DNA of 64,000 nt from Acetobacter oeni (GTDB lineage Bacteria; Pseudomonadota; Alphaproteobacteria; Acetobacterales; Acetobacteraceae), in the NCBI RefSeq assembly GCF_011516825.1, contig NZ_WOTA01000006.1, positions 62,001 through 126,000 on the forward strand, in the 5' to 3' direction. The notes beneath the pieces were generated by a model. The model was given only the letters and a program-made list of their open reading frames with translations, ran no database searches and was not told where the DNA came from. Positions 47,799 through 62,769 of this stretch are shown piece by piece; position 1 is the stretch's first letter; every line of letters starts with the position of its first letter. The position numbers and the translations under genes are program-made.

Positions 47799-48827
47799 AT
47801 GTCAGAACGCCTTCCTCCTGATCCTGGCGAGAGAGCCGTGCCGGTCAGAGCCCTTACACATTCGGGAAATTTTCATCTCGATGAGACGATGGGGTATGTG
47901 ATTCTTCACTACGCCTTTGCGCCGGAAGGGGATCTGCGCGGTCGGGTTCTCGGTGAAAAATCTCCTGGCGACCGGCTGGAATTCGTACGGACGAGGTCTC
48001 CCGAGCGCATTCAGGAGGCTGACATCGTGTTCGATGTGGGCGGTGTGTACGATCCGGCGCGGGGGCGTTTCGATCATCACATGAAGGACAAGCCGCTTCG
48101 TGATGACGGTTCTCCTTACAGTGCGGCTGGGTTGCTGTGGAAGGAGTACGGGCTTGCGGCGCTCCGTAATCTTGTCACGACGTCGCTGGACGAGGAGGCG
48201 CTGGCGACGCTCTGGCAGAGTCTTGATAAATCGCTGATTCTGCCGATTGATCTGGATGATAACGGTGTGGCGAAGATGGGCAGGCTGTCGCTGGCGGATA
48301 TTGTCTCGGCCTGTGGTCCGGCCTGGGATACCGCGGAAGTGTATGGTATCGGGGAGGCCCGGAAGAGGGAATCTCTGGGATTTGCGAATGCCGCGACGAC
48401 GGTGGCGGGGCATCTGGTGAATGTTGTCGACCGGATGAGGGCGGGTCTGAAGGCGACCAGCCGGATTCTGGCGGCTTATGAGGCGGCGGAGGATAAGCGG
48501 ATTCTCGTTATGGACACGGGGATGCCGACGGAGAAGGTGATTTTCGAACGCGATCTGCCGGTTGTTTATGTCGTGTCGCCGGCGGGGCCTGACCGGTGGA
48601 ATGTGAAGGCGATTCCGCCGGTTCGCGGAGATTTCGGGCAGCGGGTTTCGCTTCCGGAGGCGTGGCGGGGGCTGGACGGGCAGGCGCTGGCGGAGGTGTC
48701 CGGGGTTCCGGACGCGGTGTTTGCGCATCCGGCCCGGTTTATCTGCGGGGCTGCCAGCCGGGAGGGTGCGGTCAGGATGGCGTGTCTGGCGCTGGAAATC
48801 GATGCCGCGCTGAAGCCTGCGGGGTGA
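47799..48827 (+). CDS. MYG1 family (UPF0160) putative metal-dependent hydrolase/nuclease
   Basis: This 342-residue protein has the MYG1 opening THSGNFHLDETMGYVILHYA, a DHH-like metal motif. FDVGGVYDPARGRFDHHMKD follows, then YSAAGLLWKEYG, ANAATTVAGHLVNVVDRM and the late FICGAASREGAVRMACLAL. Eukaryotic MYG1 is a 3'-5' RNA exonuclease of nucleus and mitochondria; the bacterial role is not settled. It stands alone ahead of a GT2 gene 54 bases downstream. Confidence 0.88.
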   Translation: MSERLPPDPGERAVPVRALTHSGNFHLDETMGYVILHYAFAPEGDLRGRVLGEKSPGDRLEFVRTRSPERIQEADIVFDVGGVYDPARGRFDHHMKDKPLRDDGSPYSAAGLLWKEYGLAALRNLVTTSLDEEALATLWQSLDKSLILPIDLDDNGVAKMGRLSLADIVSACGPAWDTAEVYGIGEARKRESLGFANAATTVAGHLVNVVDRMRAGLKATSRILAAYEAAEDKRILVMDTGMPTEKVIFERDLPVVYVVSPAGPDRWNVKAIPPVRGDFGQRVSLPEAWRGLDGQALAEVSGVPDAVFAHPARFICGAASREGAVRMACLALEIDAALKPAG

Positions 48828-48881: not shown

Positions 48882-50072
48882 ATGAGCTCCATGGGATGGA
48901 TGCCTCGTTTTATGTGCGATCAGTTCAGTCGGTCTTTGCTGGTTGTTGCCATTCCTGTTCGTGATGAGGCGGAGAAGATCGGGGTCTGTCTGCTGGCGCT
49001 TGCCGGGCAGATGGGGGCGGCTGTCGATCATGTGGTTCTTCTGCTGAATAACTGCACGGACCGGACGCGGAGTGTTGTTGCCGGACTTGCGTCGTCCCTG
49101 CCATTTGGTCTGACGGTTGTGGAGCGGACTTATCCGCCGGAACTGGCTCATGCCGGGTCCGCGCGGCGGGAGGCTCTGGCTGTTGCGGCGGAGATAGCCG
49201 GGCCGGCGGGATTTTTGTTCACCACGGATGCGGATGGTTGTGTGGCGCCGGACTGGCTGGCGCGCAATCTTGAGGCGTTTGCGGCCGGGGCGGCTGCGGT
49301 GTGCGGGCGGGCGGTGATCGATCCGGTGGAGGCGCGCGCGATTCCGGCCTGTCTGCATGAGGATGACGCGGCGGAGGTGGCTTACGGGACGTTGCTCGAT
49401 CAGATCCATGATCTGGTCGATCCTGACCCTGCTGATCCCTGGCCACGGCATACGGAGCATTCGGGTGCGAGTATTGCGGTGAGTGTTGCGGCGTGGAAGC
49501 GGGCGGGCGGGGTTCCGGCTTTGCCGCTTGGCGAGGATCGCGGGTTTATCGCGGCATTGCGGCAGGTGGATCTGCCGCTTCGGCATGCGCCGGATGTTCT
49601 GGTGACGGTGTCCGGGCGGACGACCGGGCGGGCGCGGGGCGGGATGGCGGAGACGATTGCCCGCAGAATACGATGTCAGGATGAGATGCTGGATGATGCT
49701 CTGGAGCCTGCGGTGGTGTGTCTGCGACGGGCTCAGGCGCGGGTCTGGCTGAAGTCGCTCATGGGGGCGGCCGGGTGGACGGAGGAAACGACGGACAGTT
49801 TGCGCGGTCTGGCGGCATTTCTGGTTTTGCCGTTTGAGGATGTCATGGTGCAGACGGAGGCGCATTTTTGCGGGCGGGCCTGGTCGGTGCTGGAGCGGAT
49901 GAGTCCGGTGTTGCGGCGACAGATGGTCCGGCGTTGCGATCTGGGATGGCAGCGCGCGCAGGCCGAGGCGATCGTGAGAGATCTGATTGTGCGGGAGAGG
50001 GTGTTGCCGCTGGTGACGCATTGTCCGCCGGAGGCGGGGAACCGGGTCTCCGTGGGTGAGATGGTCAGGTAA
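48882..50072 (+). CDS. Glycosyltransferase family 2 protein (PIG-L/NodS cluster)
   Basis: This 396-residue cytoplasmic GT-A enzyme has VVAIPVRDEAEKIGVCLLAL at the start of the fold. LNNCTDRT follows, then FTTDADGCVAPDW with the D-x-D motif, and GEDRGFIAALRQ in the acceptor region. GGGAG lies five bases before the ATG. Its stop overlaps the convergent methyltransferase stop region by eight bases. It probably transfers an amino sugar or similar unit to an unknown acceptor, with deacetylase, methyltransferase and acyl-CoA-dehydrogenase-like genes on the opposite strand. Confidence 0.85.
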   Translation: MSSMGWMPRFMCDQFSRSLLVVAIPVRDEAEKIGVCLLALAGQMGAAVDHVVLLLNNCTDRTRSVVAGLASSLPFGLTVVERTYPPELAHAGSARREALAVAAEIAGPAGFLFTTDADGCVAPDWLARNLEAFAAGAAAVCGRAVIDPVEARAIPACLHEDDAAEVAYGTLLDQIHDLVDPDPADPWPRHTEHSGASIAVSVAAWKRAGGVPALPLGEDRGFIAALRQVDLPLRHAPDVLVTVSGRTTGRARGGMAETIARRIRCQDEMLDDALEPAVVCLRRAQARVWLKSLMGAAGWTEETTDSLRGLAAFLVLPFEDVMVQTEAHFCGRAWSVLERMSPVLRRQMVRRCDLGWQRAQAEAIVRDLIVRERVLPLVTHCPPEAGNRVSVGEMVR

Positions 50073-50649
50073 GGCGGTCGAAGCGACAGGTTTCGCGACG
50101 GTCGGCGGGGTGAGTGGTCAGACCCTGCGTGCGGCAGAATTCGATGAAGAGATCGGCGGCGGTGTCTCCGGTGCAGGGGGTGTTGGTGGGGCCGGTCCAG
50201 TTGACGAGAATGATCGGGGTGTGGGGGCGTCGGATGGCGAGGCAATGCTGTGCGAGATGCAGGATGTCGGCCGGGGCGAGGAAGTAGAGCAGTTCCGAGA
50301 TCAGAATCAGATCGCAGCTTTCCCGAGGGAGAGTGGGGAACTCATCCGGAAGTCTGGCGCGGCGGAACGTGACATTCGGGAATGTGGCGCAGCGCCGGCG
50401 GGCGTGGGTGAGGGCGGTTTCCGCGATATCGACGGCGAGCAGGTGTTTGCAGCGGGGCGTCAGGGAGGCGGTCAGGACGCCGATGGAGCAGCCGAGTTCG
50501 AGGGCCTGATCGAACGGGCCGGGGCCGGTGAGGGCAAGCGTGGTTGCGTATTTGTCCTGTTCATACGGGCTGGTTTCGAACCCCCAGGGGTCGGGGTTCT
50601 GTTTGTAGAGCTGTTCGAAGACGTTGCGGGGCCAGGTTTTTGCGGTCAT
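50065..50649 (-). CDS. NodS-like SAM-dependent methyltransferase
   Basis: The product has 194 residues. The N-terminal block NPDPWGFETSPYEQDKY is a hallmark of NodS-type enzymes, and SAM motif I is ALELGCSIGVLT (49-60). RRARLPDEFP and LILISELLYFL follow. NodS in rhizobia methylates the free amine left after NodB deacetylates a chitin oligomer. Here the gene follows a PIG-L deacetylase with ATGA overlap, the same order of chemistry. The tail overlaps the convergent GT2 gene. Confidence 0.85.
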   Translation of the reverse strand: MTAKTWPRNVFEQLYKQNPDPWGFETSPYEQDKYATTLALTGPGPFDQALELGCSIGVLTASLTPRCKHLLAVDIAETALTHARRRCATFPNVTFRRARLPDEFPTLPRESCDLILISELLYFLAPADILHLAQHCLAIRRPHTPIILVNWTGPTNTPCTGDTAADLFIEFCRTQGLTTHPADRRETCRFDRLT

Positions 50650-51374
50650 GGATGAAGAAAGACCTCGTAAGGGGCATCGAAGATGCTGAGGAGTGTCTCG
50701 GGGAGCCGGAAAGCCTGCGGGTCGTCGGTGATGAGGTTGCCGTACTGGCTTTCGTGCAGGTGGATGGCGCGGGTTTTGATGGTCTGGAATGGCGTGATGT
50801 CGAGGCGGAAGCCTTTGGGGGGTGGTTCGTCGATGTTTGTTTCGGGCGGGATCAGCCAGCCCCAGACGGGGTAGGCGAAGAGAGCGATGTTAAGGGTGTT
50901 GCTGATGGTGACAGCCATTTTCCATGCGGATTCATGATCGCAATGGGGATCGTGTCGCCAGGGCGCGAGGAGTGTGGTGCTGTTCGTGGTGCGGGCAAGT
51001 TTTGTGAGGTGGTGAACGGCGTGATCGAAATCCGGGCCGTCATGCGGGGCCTGGGTATCGTGAAGGCGGAGAAAAACAAGGTGGTGATCGGGCAGGCCGA
51101 GGCAGGCGGTGGCATTGCGGGCTTCCTGTTCGCGCTGCGCGCGGAGACGGGAAGCGGGCCAGGTGAGGGAGTTGGGATGTGAGCCGGTGCCGTCTGTCAG
51201 GATGACGATAACGGGGGGGCGTCCGGCGGCGCAGAGGGTTGCGATAAGGCCGCCGCAGCCGAGGCTTTCGTCATCGGCGTGGGGGACGAGGATCAGGGCG
51301 GTGCCGGGGGCGATGTCGTCCGGTGTGCCGACAGGCAGCGTGCGGAAGGCGGTTTGAATCTCTCCGGCTTTCAT
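50646..51374 (-). CDS. PIG-L (LmbE-like) N-deacetylase
   Basis: This 242-residue zinc hydrolase carries PHADDESLGCGG at 31-42. That is the PHPDDE motif with Ala for Pro, keeping His32, Asp34 and Asp35. WRHDPHCDHESAW supplies the remaining His. Family members remove acetyl from N-acetylglucosamine groups. It overlaps both neighbours by four bases (ATGA at 50646-50649 and 51371-51374), so it is translated with the acyl-CoA-dehydrogenase-like gene and the NodS-like gene. Confidence 0.9.
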   Translation of the reverse strand: MKAGEIQTAFRTLPVGTPDDIAPGTALILVPHADDESLGCGGLIATLCAAGRPPVIVILTDGTGSHPNSLTWPASRLRAQREQEARNATACLGLPDHHLVFLRLHDTQAPHDGPDFDHAVHHLTKLARTTNSTTLLAPWRHDPHCDHESAWKMAVTISNTLNIALFAYPVWGWLIPPETNIDEPPPKGFRLDITPFQTIKTRAIHLHESQYGNLITDDPQAFRLPETLLSIFDAPYEVFLHP

Positions 51375-52465
51375 GATCGCGGCGGGTCGCGGCGGGTGAA
51401 ATGGGCGGCGGCTTCAGCGAGGGTTTCGTCCGGGGCGGGCTGGCGGAGATAGGTGGCCAGATCGCGCATGATGCGTTCGACGACATTGGATTTGATGAAA
51501 GCGGAGAGGCCGAGGCCGCGCTGGGTGAGTTCGAGCACGTCCAGCCCGGCGCGTTCGACGGCGATGCGGGCGAGGTTGACTGTTGCGGCGGCATCGGCGG
51601 GGGCGATTGTGTCGTCATCCGCGACGAGCGCGGCTTTGCGGGTCCAGAGGGCGGCGGTTTCGCGGGCGATGAGGGCTTCGCCGATACGGGCGCGCTGATA
51701 GGGGTTTGAATCGCGGCCACGGGTAACGAGCTGGGCGCGGAGAAGGGTGACGAGGCGGTCGATGCCGCCGAGCGCGACGGCCATGCCGCGCCAGGCGCCG
51801 GCGGAGAATTCGGGCTGGCGGAGATAGTCGCCGGGTTCTCCGACGATGGCATCGGGGGTGGTTCTGAAGCCGGTGAAACTGAAGCGTCCGGTTCCGGAGC
51901 CGCGCATGCCTGACAGGCTGACGACGGAGGACGATGTCTGGCGATTGTTGCCGACCGGGACGACCAGCATGCAGGTTCCGCTTTCCGGCAATTCGGCGGT
52001 GATGAGGGGGTGGGTGACGTGCAGGGCTCCGGAGGCGAAGGATTTCTCACCTTCAAGTGAGAGGCCTGCTTCTGTGCGGACGAGGCGGACGGGGTTTGTG
52101 GTTTCGGTGACCCAGATCCCGCAGAGGGCGCCGTTGCGGATATGTGTGGCGAGCTGGCGGAGATGGGCCGGGGTGCCGTAGCGGGCGACCAGGCGGATGG
52201 CGTTGATATGGCCTTCCAGGAGGCGGCCGAGGGGGAGGCTGGCCTCGCCGGTGAGGCGTAGCAGGTGGAGGAGGCCGGTAGCGCCGCCGGGATCGGTGCC
52301 GAAACCGCAGCCGTCGAGAGATTTTGGCAGGGCGGCGGAAAGGGCGCCCAGGCTGCGGATGAGGGTGAGGCCGCCGGCGGGAAAACTGCCGTCGCGGTCA
52401 TTTTCCGTGGCTTCGGCTTCGAGTTCGGGAAGGCAGGCTTTCAGGCTCTCGAAGGGAAAGGTCAT
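51371..52465 (-). CDS. Acyl-CoA dehydrogenase-like protein
   Basis: This 364-residue flavoprotein-like protein is at the short end for its family. It reads LLRLTGEASLPLGRLLEGHINA, ALCGIWVTETTNPVRL, LSLEGEKSFASGALHVTHPL in the middle domain, and SNPYQRARIGEALIARETAALW near the C-terminal bundle. The catalytic Glu cannot be placed with confidence, so true dehydrogenase activity is uncertain. It is the first gene of the three-gene minus-strand run ending in the NodS-like enzyme. Confidence 0.75.
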   Translation of the reverse strand: MTFPFESLKACLPELEAEATENDRDGSFPAGGLTLIRSLGALSAALPKSLDGCGFGTDPGGATGLLHLLRLTGEASLPLGRLLEGHINAIRLVARYGTPAHLRQLATHIRNGALCGIWVTETTNPVRLVRTEAGLSLEGEKSFASGALHVTHPLITAELPESGTCMLVVPVGNNRQTSSSVVSLSGMRGSGTGRFSFTGFRTTPDAIVGEPGDYLRQPEFSAGAWRGMAVALGGIDRLVTLLRAQLVTRGRDSNPYQRARIGEALIARETAALWTRKAALVADDDTIAPADAAATVNLARIAVERAGLDVLELTQRGLGLSAFIKSNVVERIMRDLATYLRQPAPDETLAEAAAHFTRRDPPRS

Positions 52466-52789
52466 TGGTACGGGGGCCTAACCGGAATGGGGATATGTAT
52501 GAGAAGCGTGAAAAGATGGCGCGGGTTGCATGGCAAGGAAAAAACGACTGTGAATCCGGTCGTGTGCGGGGTGGTGTGATGTATTTTTATCTGGTTTCAG
52601 GTTGTTGTTCTGATTAGATACGGAGCGTATTTTTGATATTGCAGTGGTAATAAAATATCAATAAAATTAGTATTAAAGTAAAATTATTATTTATAAATTT
52701 CCTTGCGTGTTTAATTTTTTATTTACAAAAATTATGTAATTTAATTGTCTGGGATTTAATTAATTTTCATAGAAGGTAGGTGGTATTTA
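52466..52789. other. 324-base A+T-rich intergenic region
   Basis: Divergent region between the acyl-CoA-dehydrogenase-like gene and the next plus-strand gene. The right two thirds (about 52590-52780) is strongly A+T-rich with runs such as TTTAATTTTTTATTTAC, quite unlike the surrounding DNA. It must hold promoters for both sides. No gene is seen. Confidence 0.6.
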
Positions 52790-54139
52790 ATGTCAGTGAT
52801 AATCGGATTCAGAACTCACATCTGGAATGATGACATTGAATATATAGCCCGACGATTAAAAGGAGCGTTTTCAAAAGCTGATTTTGTTATTTTAGCAGAT
52901 GAAACACACCAGACGTTAGATACGGGATCGCTTCCAAAGATTACTCATACAGCAGATTTTTCAGAGTTCGGATTGCCGTCAGTTCCGGACTGGAATGTGT
53001 TATGGCACAATGGTGATTATCCTTTGTATGTTCTGCGTCGGGCATTTCCGGACATTACCCATTATCTTATGGTTGAAAATGATGTTCTCGTTAATTTTGA
53101 TCTGGATGTATTGTTAGATTATATACAAAAAAACAATATTGATCTGGTTGTTCATCAGATTGAAAAAACGTCTTCTGAATGGGGTGGTTATGCGAGCATA
53201 GCTGAATATTTTTCCAACCCGATGAAATGTCTTTTTCCATTTATTGCGATCTCAGGGCGGGCAATAGATGTATTGTATAAAAACAGAATAAATCATGCGC
53301 GGATGTTTCTGGAAAAGAAAACTTCTCAGTGGCCTTATTGTGAGGGTTTTATTGCATCATCCATCATGGAGGATGAAAATTTATCAGTAAAAGATATTTC
53401 TGAATTTTGCGATCCTGAGCATTATAGTTTTAATGGCTGTTACCATTACCTTGACCGCGAAGCTAATATTCATGGAACAATCTGTCACCCGGTGAGGGGG
53501 ATCGGTTTTGTTCAGAGGCGTCTGGATGAAGATGGTCCGGATATCATTTTCGATCGCAACTCTGTTCTTCGCAGAGGATTATCAAATTTAAAGCCACGGG
53601 ATTTTTATAATACGCTTTACAGAGCAGTTGTGGGAACAAAAAGGATAGATAAAGTTAATCAGTTTAATGATATAGCGTTGCAGGAAGGGTGGATTATGAA
53701 ACCGGAGTCAATCAACCGGGCTCTTGGGGCGAAATCATCTCAGTCTTCTGTTTGTCAGTATTCAAGGGTTCAGGACGTATGTCTTGATGCGGAAGGCGCC
53801 GTGAGTGGTGTTCCGGGGAAGGATCATTTTTTTCATACTGATCTGGAATTCTCTCCATGGTGGAAGGCTGAATTGTATCAGTCAGTTAATATAAAGCATA
53901 TTATTATATATAACCGTTCGATTCATAAAGAAAGAGCTTCAAAAATTCATGTTGAGATTTCGGAAAATGATCAGGACTGGGTAACTGTTGCCTCCTACCC
54001 GAATGGAATTATATTTGATGGCATTGGTGGTGTGCCTCTCGTTATCTGTGTGAATAGTATAATGGCGCGATTTATTAAAATAAGTCTTCTTGATGAGAAC
54101 TTTCTTCATTTAAGTCAGGTCGAGGTGTACGATCAATAG
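52790..54139 (+). CDS. Glycosyltransferase-like protein with C-terminal discoidin (F5/8 type C)-like domain
   Basis: The product has 449 residues. The front half (about 1-260) looks like a small glycosyltransferase-type fold, with LMVENDVLVNFDLDVLLDYI as an acidic metal motif. The last ~140 residues resemble a carbohydrate-binding F5/8 type C domain, with FSPWWKAELYQSVNIKHIIIYNR, RASKIHVEISENDQDWV and RFIKISLLDENFLHLSQVEVYD. The gene is markedly A+T-rich (many ATA, AAA and TTA codons), so it was probably acquired. AGAAGGTAGG precedes the ATG. It has no signal peptide. Fusion of a transferase and a discoidin domain recurs in surface-glycan genes; the substrate is unknown. Confidence 0.65.
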   Translation: MSVIIGFRTHIWNDDIEYIARRLKGAFSKADFVILADETHQTLDTGSLPKITHTADFSEFGLPSVPDWNVLWHNGDYPLYVLRRAFPDITHYLMVENDVLVNFDLDVLLDYIQKNNIDLVVHQIEKTSSEWGGYASIAEYFSNPMKCLFPFIAISGRAIDVLYKNRINHARMFLEKKTSQWPYCEGFIASSIMEDENLSVKDISEFCDPEHYSFNGCYHYLDREANIHGTICHPVRGIGFVQRRLDEDGPDIIFDRNSVLRRGLSNLKPRDFYNTLYRAVVGTKRIDKVNQFNDIALQEGWIMKPESINRALGAKSSQSSVCQYSRVQDVCLDAEGAVSGVPGKDHFFHTDLEFSPWWKAELYQSVNIKHIIIYNRSIHKERASKIHVEISENDQDWVTVASYPNGIIFDGIGGVPLVICVNSIMARFIKISLLDENFLHLSQVEVYDQ

Positions 54140-54524
54140 CAGGATTACACTGCATTTAACGTTTTTAGATTCAAAATTTAGATCGGGATTGGGACGGCAG
54201 CGGCGCGACGGATTGCCGGGAAAGAGGCCGGAAGAGCCACCGTCTTCAGTGGAGAGCGAATAGTCCGGGCACGTCACCAGAGGAAAGCGCGCGGATCGGG
54301 CATCGAAAGTATTTTTAATTTTATGGTTATAAAACCTGCTGGCTGAGGTTCTTGCCAAACCATAGCCAGCAGGTTTTATAAAGAGACTATATTCGGAAGT
54401 CTGTGATCCCGGGTGGAATTTGCGGGAATTCTTAAGCGTCAGAAAATAAAATCCTGAAATCTGTCATTTAATAAATCCGGTTCAGATCAGGTTGAATTTT
54501 TCCGGGTGCGGGAAAGCCCTTGTC
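54140..54524. other. 385-base convergent intergenic region
   Basis: It lies between convergent stops. A GC-rich block (about 54180-54300) inside otherwise A+T-rich DNA has an open reverse-strand frame but no recognisable product. It may be debris of a mobile element. The long hairpin at 54327-54381 is annotated separately. Confidence 0.5.
54327..54381. terminator. 18-bp perfect inverted repeat, probable bidirectional terminator
   Basis: TTATAAAACCTGCTGGCT (54327-54344) and AGCCAGCAGGTTTTATAA (54364-54381) are perfect arms around a 19-base loop. Each arm gives a T-run (TTTTAT) on one strand. The site lies between convergent genes. Its size is larger than a usual terminator, so a small mobile-element relic is possible. 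Confidence 0.6.
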
Positions 54525-61836: not shown

Positions 61837-62769
61837 TTATGCGGAGAGGCAGGCCAGCATGACCTGTACACGCGGATCGGTCTGGTCCGGGGTGAGGTAA
61901 TTTCCGTTGTTGGCGAGCCATTTGTCGTCACACCAGACGGTTGTGGCCAGGACACGGGAATCCGCGGTCAGGTCCGTTAGCATGGCTTTGAGGGCGGCGA
62001 CGGAGACAGCGTCGGACGGGCCGCCGGTTTCACCGAGGATGATGCCGGAGTAGCAATCGGGCAGGGTTGAGGCGAGCAGCCCGGCGAAGCGGTCGACGCC
62101 GACTGTGGTGCTGGTTGAGGCGTCTCCGGCTCCGGAATTGTCCGGGTCCAGGTAGCAATGGACCTCGACGACGCAGGGGCCGACGGAATCCACCACGGCG
62201 GGCACGGGGTTGCTGACGCTGAACTGGCTGGCGGCCTGATAGGCTGTCCAGGGAACGGTGATCACGCCTGTGTAGCCGGTGGCGCGGATTGCGGCGATGG
62301 CTGTGTTCCAGAGCGGCTGATAGGTTGCGTTGTCGTGCTGGGAGGGTTCGTTCATGAGGCCGATGGCGACGCGCCAGGGATCGGCGTCGCCCATCCAGTC
62401 TTTGATGCCGGTGGCGAGGCGGGTCATGTAATCGATATACTGGGCCTGGCCGTCGGTGGTGGTGATGTCGACGGTTGTTCCGCTGGTCTGGATGCTGCCA
62501 AATCCGTGCGGGTCGAAAATGACGAAGCCGTTTGCATCGAGATAGGGCTGTGCGAGGCTGGTGGAGTATCCGAGGTAGGTTGCGTCGAGTGCGGTGCCCT
62601 GACCGCCGGGCTGCATACGATACAGGTTATGGGGGATGCGCGCTGCGAGGCATCCCAGGGAAATCCAGTTTTCCGCGAGGGAGACTGAGGGAACATTGTA
62701 ATCATAATTGGCTCTGGCGGAAAATGTGCTTCCGTCTTCAAGGCCACCGAGGTTAACGCCGATAAGCAT
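61837..62769 (-). CDS. Glycoside hydrolase family 5 (endoglucanase-like)
   Basis: This 310-residue TIM-barrel enzyme cuts beta-glucan or cellulose-type chains by retention. Acid/base Glu141 lies in AIGLMNEP, and nucleophile Glu247 in ILGETG. HCYLDPDNSG carries the conserved His-Tyr before the nucleophile. ARIPHNLYRMQPGG and FVIFDPHG fit the family. The start is MLIGVNLGG with no signal peptide, so secretion would need another route or a fused start missed here. Cellulose-making acetic acid bacteria use such enzymes, but no bcs genes are in the window. Confidence 0.85.
   Translation of the reverse strand: MLIGVNLGGLEDGSTFSARANYDYNVPSVSLAENWISLGCLAARIPHNLYRMQPGGQGTALDATYLGYSTSLAQPYLDANGFVIFDPHGFGSIQTSGTTVDITTTDGQAQYIDYMTRLATGIKDWMGDADPWRVAIGLMNEPSQHDNATYQPLWNTAIAAIRATGYTGVITVPWTAYQAASQFSVSNPVPAVVDSVGPCVVEVHCYLDPDNSGAGDASTSTTVGVDRFAGLLASTLPDCYSGIILGETGGPSDAVSVAALKAMLTDLTADSRVLATTVWCDDKWLANNGNYLTPDQTDPRVQVMLACLSA

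Follow-up and report, generated by a model that had tools for sequence, protein, structure and literature searches.

The four genes at positions 48882 to 52465 of a 64,000-nucleotide stretch of the Acetobacter oeni genome (hereafter the window; positions 62,001 to 126,000 of contig NZ_WOTA01000006.1, assembly GCF_011516825.1) raise the question of what their products might make together. They encode a glycosyltransferase of the GT2 family, a PIG-L/LmbE family deacetylase, a NodS-like S-adenosylmethionine (SAM) methyltransferase and a flavoprotein with the acyl-CoA dehydrogenase fold. An earlier note on this DNA had likened the set to the rhizobial Nod factor genes and proposed an N-methylated, possibly acylated amino-sugar compound as its product. 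We found that the four families are grouped across many genomes, and that the flavoprotein family has Gln where acyl-CoA dehydrogenases have their catalytic Glu. We tentatively favor a four-enzyme pathway in which an amino sugar is transferred and deacetylated, and its amine is likely oxidised and likely methylated; we rate this pathway as quite possible, though somewhat short of probable.

To determine how often the four families occur together, we carried out a search of the genome collection seeded with the flavoprotein. At least 530 confirmed relatives were found and the best 80 loci, some of them from the same species, were kept. All four families were present in 66 of these 80 best named loci, spanning 3.1 to 4.5 kb. 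The remaining 14 contained the flavoprotein and methyltransferase (6 loci), three of the four families (6 loci) or the flavoprotein alone (2 loci), and a few of these lay at contig ends. In the commonest arrangement (56/80), the PIG-L and methyltransferase genes follow the flavoprotein gene and a GT2 gene converges on them; the GT2 gene came first in the run in 8/80. Carriers of the module include Gluconobacter oxydans NBRC 14819 (L062) and Komagataeibacter xylinus NBRC 15237 (L041). Open reading frames of at least 90 residues within 10 kb were then clustered over 84 loci, mostly from the Acetobacteraceae. The flavoprotein family occurred in 83 of these loci, the methyltransferase in 79, and PIG-L and GT2 in 73 each. 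Among the 40 largest families, judged by eye from their coordinates, no fifth family was broadly common around the module; apart from shadow frames none exceeded 17/84 loci. The next commonest was a short-chain-dehydrogenase-like family (17/84), and the other large families listed were antisense or shadow frames of the four genes. Thus, no acyltransferase was broadly common around the set either.

A flavoprotein profile built from 31 family members matched 38 of 397 genomes in a sample of the phylum at E ≤1e-25, including the genome of the window. Of the other 37 matches, 33 loci were examined as one set, the G036 and G280 loci were examined apart from it, and G522 and G637 were left out. Of the set of 33, 25 loci had all four families inside a 4-kb span (7/10 from the same class and 18/23 from other classes); one of the 25, L191, rests on a weak PIG-L match of 29.6 bits. 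The G036 locus also contained all four families, and the G280 locus was without neighbouring PIG-L and GT2 genes. Matches were found in 44 plasmid records, and 13 of the 17 that were opened carried all four families (8/10 by profile and 5/7 by annotation alone). These included plasmids of Nostoc sp. UHCC 0926, Deinococcus sp. NW-56 and AJ005, Bradyrhizobium japonicum, Sulfitobacter faviae and Paracoccus alcaliphilus, with partial sets on plasmid records of Deinococcus radiodurans, D. proteolyticus, Roseomonas haemaphysalidis and Methylobacterium sp. FF17. When the search was seeded with PIG-L in the Acetobacteraceae, 54 of 150 genomes matched, the window's genome included. Among the best 29 of 57 other PIG-L matches, all four families were present within 3.7 kb in 21 and PIG-L was alone in 4, and a flavoprotein match was found no more than 1.5 kb from PIG-L in 25 (one of them weak, at 38.6 bits). 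The lack of co-occurrence that the earlier note had named as a refutation was not observed (66/80, 25/33 and 13/17 loci had all four) and, judged from these counts, the grouping is far beyond chance. From these data we conclude that the four genes are a real, conserved unit that is present on plasmids of several genera.

The module also occurred in split, doubled and fused forms. Sixteen loci had no neighbouring PIG-L gene, and the genomes of 11 of them were tested with the same PIG-L profile. In 10 of the 11 a match was found elsewhere in the genome (E 1e-41 to 1e-85), about 12 kb away on the same contig in the case of G429; the profile found none in the genome of G555. The finding of an unlinked PIG-L gene in 10 of 11 genomes is a further sign that these enzymes belong to one pathway. 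In 4 of the 10 genomes (L258-L261) a second methyltransferase of the module family followed the unlinked PIG-L gene, the module being split or partly doubled in these cases. One predicted protein (P0095) joined the flavoprotein and PIG-L in a single chain, and in three Deinococcus records (L105:6741-9080, L117 and L118) the flavoprotein was fused behind a glycosidase-like half. In the D. radiodurans fusion, the one that was compared, this half had no Pfam family at cut-off and no match in the window's genome; its identity to a family 1 glycosylhydrolase from Deinococcus AJ005 was 24% (74.3 bits). In AJ005 this glycosylhydrolase, a UDP-galactopyranose mutase and another glycosyltransferase adjoin the module. 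We also observed a second PIG-L gene past the methyltransferase end of the module in L161, L167 and L168.

Relatives of the flavoprotein are annotated as acyl-CoA dehydrogenases, and 19 of 31 family members matched PF00441; the window protein had no Pfam match at E 1e-3. Its structure model (predicted local distance difference test, pLDDT, 86; predicted template-modelling score, pTM, 0.88) matched the acyl-CoA dehydrogenase fold over its whole length. In acyl-CoA dehydrogenases, a Glu in a C-terminal motif is the catalytic residue. We aligned the family with the genome's own acyl-CoA dehydrogenase, in which this Glu lies in a YEGT motif, and found that the corresponding column was Gln in all 31 members; Arg341, Gln342 and Asp346 were invariant. 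The alignment contains a one-residue gap at this point, and the residue obtained without the gap was Pro (24), Ala (6) or Gly (1), still not Glu. Around the alternative catalytic position there was no conserved Glu, with 1 of the 31 members having Glu in a nearby column. Among paralogues in the window's genome, the same column was Glu in an AidB-like protein and Asp, Ser, Thr and Ala in four proteins that by eye were named monooxygenase-like. Because Gln rather than Glu occupies the catalytic column, acyl-CoA dehydrogenation by the usual mechanism is unlikely, and oxygenase is the better reading of the flavoprotein.

Comparisons with solved structures indicated which oxygenases the flavoprotein may resemble. 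In a phmmer search, the best four distinct chains were DnmZ (36.6 bits), a nitrososynthase and two KijD3 entries. Next came DszC and a probable monooxygenase, ahead of short-chain acyl-CoA dehydrogenases. Foldseek also placed DnmZ and KijD3 at ranks 1 and 2, by a small margin over a putative acyl-CoA dehydrogenase entry and DszC, whereas VIA-align Z scores did not discriminate between the candidate relatives. DnmZ, KijD3 and the nitrososynthase act on the amines of amino sugars. With a broad family profile, the five best chains were from DszC, TdsC and MsuC (84.5 to 87.6 bits). These were followed by putative acyl-CoA dehydrogenases (78.5 and 76.5 bits), a flavin-containing monooxygenase (76.0 bits) and KijD3 (73.1 bits), while short-chain-type dehydrogenases (at most 69.9 bits), the nitrososynthase (69.3 bits), the human short-chain enzyme (about 63 bits), the very-long-chain enzyme (62.2 bits) and DnmZ (61.3 bits) scored lower. 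A narrow profile (A1) put very-long-chain acyl-CoA dehydrogenase on top at 53.6 bits, with DszC-type enzymes and KijD3 at 50 to 52 bits. Two of these results weigh against an amino-sugar oxygenase: a dehydrogenase led the narrow profile, and DnmZ and KijD3, although closest by phmmer and narrowly by Foldseek, were closest by neither family profile. Nevertheless, the majority of the searches placed flavin monooxygenases nearest, amino-sugar N-oxygenases among them. The flavoprotein is likely an amine oxygenase, and we infer that it acts on a sugar amine because of its resemblance to N-oxygenases and because its partners are a PIG-L and a NodS-like enzyme. Four flavin-reductase-family proteins encoded in the genome could supply the reduced flavin.

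The partner enzymes were examined in the same way. The PIG-L protein scored 80.7 bits with PF02585 (cut-off 28.2 bits), and its metal-site residues H32, D34, D35, E36, H144, D146 and H147 were invariant in 15/15 rows of the alignment. Among solved chains it was nearest to PH0499, at 34.9 bits, with diacetylchitobiose deacetylases at about 31 bits. The methyltransferase scored 57.2 bits with PF05401 (NodS; cut-off 24 bits) and 72 bits with the NodS equivalog model NCBIfam NF041650, far below its threshold of 300. It aligned over residues 12-127 to NodS, a stretch that takes in the DPW segment and the SAM loop; by what is known of the fold, this loop is the Glu-Leu-Gly-Cys-Ser-Ile-Gly segment. 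Its nearest solved chains, NodS (56.8 bits) and the orphan structure 4isc (56.1 bits), were level. The latter, listed only as 'Methyltransferase' with no function, scored 247.5 bits with the methyltransferase of a module that lies behind trehalose genes (L161:11041-11640), and by sequence 4isc is a member of the module's methyltransferase family. In the GT2 protein, the DxD and ED residues T115, D116, D118, E218 and D219 were invariant in 25/25 rows of alignment A4. No solved relative of this protein was found by sequence at E 0.01, and an alignment-free model of it was poor (pLDDT 39). The QxxRW motif, a mark of membrane-bound processive GT2 enzymes of the NodC type, was absent from all 67 GT2 rows. 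The window's GT2 (P0001) had a single hydrophobic peak, with a 19-residue mean of at most 1.76 (averaging windows 35-37), similar to the values for the methyltransferase (1.72) and PIG-L (1.66). As this peak is like those of its partners, the GT2 is likely soluble.

In the pathway that we propose, GT2 would put an N-acetylated amino sugar on an acceptor and PIG-L would take off the acetyl group. The flavoprotein would then likely oxidise the freed amine, giving a hydroxylamine or a more oxidised group, and the amine would likely be methylated by the NodS-like enzyme. The sugar would be glycosidically bound when it is deacetylated and, probably, N-oxygenated and methylated. We infer which substrates are used, that the amine is N-oxygenated, where the methyl group goes, in what order the enzymes act and what the acceptor is. 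It is reasonable to expect an amino-sugar compound that is deacetylated and methylated, and this part of the earlier proposal was supported, as the PIG-L residues were conserved in 15/15 rows and NodS was the top solved match of the methyltransferase. Acylation was not supported, given the lack of a broadly common fifth family and the Gln at the catalytic position, nor was the comparison of GT2 with a NodC-like chain synthase, given the missing QxxRW motif and the single hydrophobic peak. A search for NodA found no match in the window's genome, yet none was found in 14 control genomes either. In our reading, the Nod factor analogy extends to deacetylation and methylation only, and the product is predicted not to be a Nod factor.

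Three other explanations were weighed against this pathway. The module could modify an extracellular or lipid-linked glycan, such as an exopolysaccharide or lipopolysaccharide, forming one unit within a larger group of glycosyltransferases, with the flavoprotein oxidising a carbon position rather than the amine. Consistent with such a role are the further glycosyltransferase genes that Sphingobium and Novosphingobium carry in the same run, the sugar genes that adjoin the module in Deinococcus AJ005 and the glycosidase-like half of the D. radiodurans fusion. However, no other family was broadly common around the four in the 84 clustered loci, mostly Acetobacteraceae, and the glycosidase-like half is unmatched in the window's genome. 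We consider this explanation unlikely, and the next one more so. It holds that the enzymes act on a small thiol-like or pseudo-disaccharide cofactor of the mycothiol or bacillithiol type, which is made by a glycosyltransferase followed by a PIG-L deacetylase. The stress-gene neighbours described below in some loci would fit this idea, as would the score of 48.9 bits that PIG-L obtained with BshB1 (TIGR04001), but the cut-off of that model is 182.5 bits. Furthermore, the module enzyme is a GT2, whereas BshA and MshA are of the GT4 type, and no broadly common fifth family was available as a possible ligase.

A closer copy of the Nod factor pathway seems equally improbable. Here GT2 would assemble a chain of amino sugars for trimming and methylation by PIG-L and the NodS-like enzyme, and the flavoprotein would desaturate an acyl chain, either attached or carrier-bound. 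Such a pathway would account for the NodS match, for the closeness of PIG-L to diacetylchitobiose deacetylases and for the very-long-chain acyl-CoA dehydrogenase at the top of the narrow profile. On the other hand, it is at odds with Gln occupying the catalytic Glu column of 31/31 flavoproteins, the absence of QxxRW from 67/67 GT2 rows, the lack of a broadly common fifth family and the broad profile, which was closest to monooxygenases.

Inspection of the neighbouring genes revealed possible links of the module to stress survival. The trehalose or glycogen genes treZ, treY and glgX immediately preceded the module in three loci (L161, L167 and L168) of a single family from another class, treY immediately preceded it in Acetobacter cerevisiae (L061) and A. 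malorum (L057 and L065), and trehalose or glycogen genes lay no more than 10 kb from it in L169 and L175. Genes for catalase, Dps, Ku or LigD were close to the module in other loci. For comparison, 60 control regions were taken at positions set beforehand in 19 of the genomes; 11/42 module loci had a stress marker versus 2/60 control regions (Fisher p 0.0009). This value overstates the difference because the markers and the 200-bit threshold were picked after L161 and the plasmid loci had been seen, because several loci share a family and because only those 19 genomes supplied controls. By marker, the counts in module loci (n = 42) and controls (n = 60) were 6 versus 1 for trehalose/glycogen, 5 versus 1 for catalase, 2 versus 0 for Ku/LigD and 0 versus 0 for Dps; the window itself contained none of these markers. 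The repeated trehalose, catalase and DNA-repair neighbours suggest, more tentatively, that the module helps cells to survive drying, osmotic stress or oxidative stress. In Pseudomonas syringae the trehalose operon from glgA to glgX was deleted, and the four module genes are not mentioned in the available passages of that report (PMC8982409).

We considered the general-stress sigma factor EcfG as a general regulator of the module and rejected it. The strict consensus, GGAAC-N15-18-CGTT, was present upstream of the flavoprotein gene in 1/43 acetic acid bacterial loci and 0/36 other alphaproteobacterial loci, compared with 0.7% and 1.0% of random stretches, respectively, and it was absent from the window. 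A looser form was found in 13/43 acetic acid bacterial loci (2.1% of random stretches), 10 of them from Komagataeibacter or Novacetimonas, and in 2/36 other loci (1.3% of random stretches). A further motif pair, GGAAC[CT]AA ... CTGTT, whose spacer is divergent, precedes the flavoprotein gene in 11 loci (L030, L034, L035, L037-L043 and L045) from Komagataeibacter, Novacetimonas and Gluconacetobacter entanii. This pair, which is absent from the window, resembles a promoter for an extracytoplasmic function (ECF) sigma factor.

The arrangement of the module in the window is listed below. Open reading frames and the raw sequence reproduced the gene positions given in the earlier note, as well as the two ATGA overlaps and the tail-to-tail overlap of 8 bases between the ends of the GT2 and methyltransferase genes (50065-50072).

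Table. Features of the four-gene module, in window positions.
Feature	Position	Strand	Remarks
GT2 glycosyltransferase	48882-50072	+	396 residues; PF00535 36.7 bits; convergent with the other three genes
Thr-Asp-Ala-Asp (DxD-type) motif of GT2	49224-49235	+	from translation
NodS-like SAM methyltransferase	50065-50649	-	194 residues; PF05401 (NodS) 57.2 bits
Glu-Leu-Gly-Cys-Ser-Ile-Gly loop of methyltransferase	50479-50499	-	from translation; aligns with the LEIGCAAG segment of NodS
ATGA overlap, PIG-L stop and methyltransferase start	50646-50649	-	from raw sequence
PIG-L/LmbE family deacetylase	50646-51374	-	242 residues; PF02585 80.7 bits
Pro-His-Ala-Asp-Asp-Glu, metal-site motif of PIG-L	51267-51284	-	from translation
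ATGA overlap, flavoprotein stop and PIG-L start	51371-51374	-	from raw sequence
Acyl-CoA-dehydrogenase-fold flavoprotein, read as likely amine oxygenase	51371-52465	-	364 residues
Gln342 codon of flavoprotein	51440-51442	-	aligns with the catalytic Glu of acyl-CoA dehydrogenases

Among named relatives, the best matches to the flavoprotein and PIG-L came from Acetobacter musti (83% and 79% identity, respectively). Distribution of the set within the genus was patchy, with a strong PIG-L match (E < 1e-60) in 5 of 24 other genomes of the genus, a weak match in 1 and none in 18. A MYG1-family (UPF0160) gene at 47799-48827 lies just upstream of the GT2 gene on the same strand. On the other side of the module, G+C content dips to 36-42% at 52500-54400 (flanks 61-68%) over a gene at 52790-54139 that carries an F5/8 type C, galactose-binding domain, and this stretch looks like a recent acquisition.

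By titles and the starts of abstracts, no description of the four-gene set or its product was found in the open-licence literature, and the product would be an undescribed one. If our pathway is correct, a gene set that has been annotated piecemeal, and whose flavoprotein is present in 38/397 sampled genomes of the phylum, makes one undescribed class of compounds, and the label 'acyl-CoA dehydrogenase' conceals an oxygenase. To our knowledge, N-oxidised amino sugars are known mainly from actinomycete antibiotics; their occurrence in a module of Proteobacteria, Deinococcus and Nostoc would shift where such chemistry is sought, and would provide a testable tie between Nod-type amino-sugar chemistry and stress survival. 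The most far-reaching version of this proposal is that a widespread, horizontally mobile module makes a new class of amino-sugar glycoconjugates, N-oxidised and N- or O-methylated, which protect bacteria in dry, osmotic or oxidative stress, and that the acyl-CoA dehydrogenase annotations of the family are wrong. We regard that version as a whole as doubtful.

Like the Nod factor genes nodBCS of rhizobia, the module combines a glycosyltransferase, an N-deacetylase and a NodS-type methyltransferase in what would be the same logic on an amino sugar. Unlike nodBCS, its deacetylase is of the PIG-L type, from which that of NodB differs, its GT2 is without QxxRW, no acyltransferase is broadly common and there is an additional flavoprotein. 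The amino-sugar N-oxygenases DnmZ, KijD3 and the Micromonospora nitrososynthase share the fold of this flavoprotein and are its best sequence and Foldseek matches; however, identity is 18 to 21%, they are not top in either profile, and the partners in the module are PIG-L, NodS-like and GT2 enzymes. The group D flavin monooxygenases DszC, TdsC and MsuC are the best matches of the broad profile, but by name those enzymes use sulfur compounds, whereas the gene setting of the module points to an amino sugar. Finally, the module's PIG-L shares its family and metal-site residues with the PIG-L/LmbE deacetylases, including BshB1 and PH0499, but it scores under the BshB1 cut-off and has different partners.

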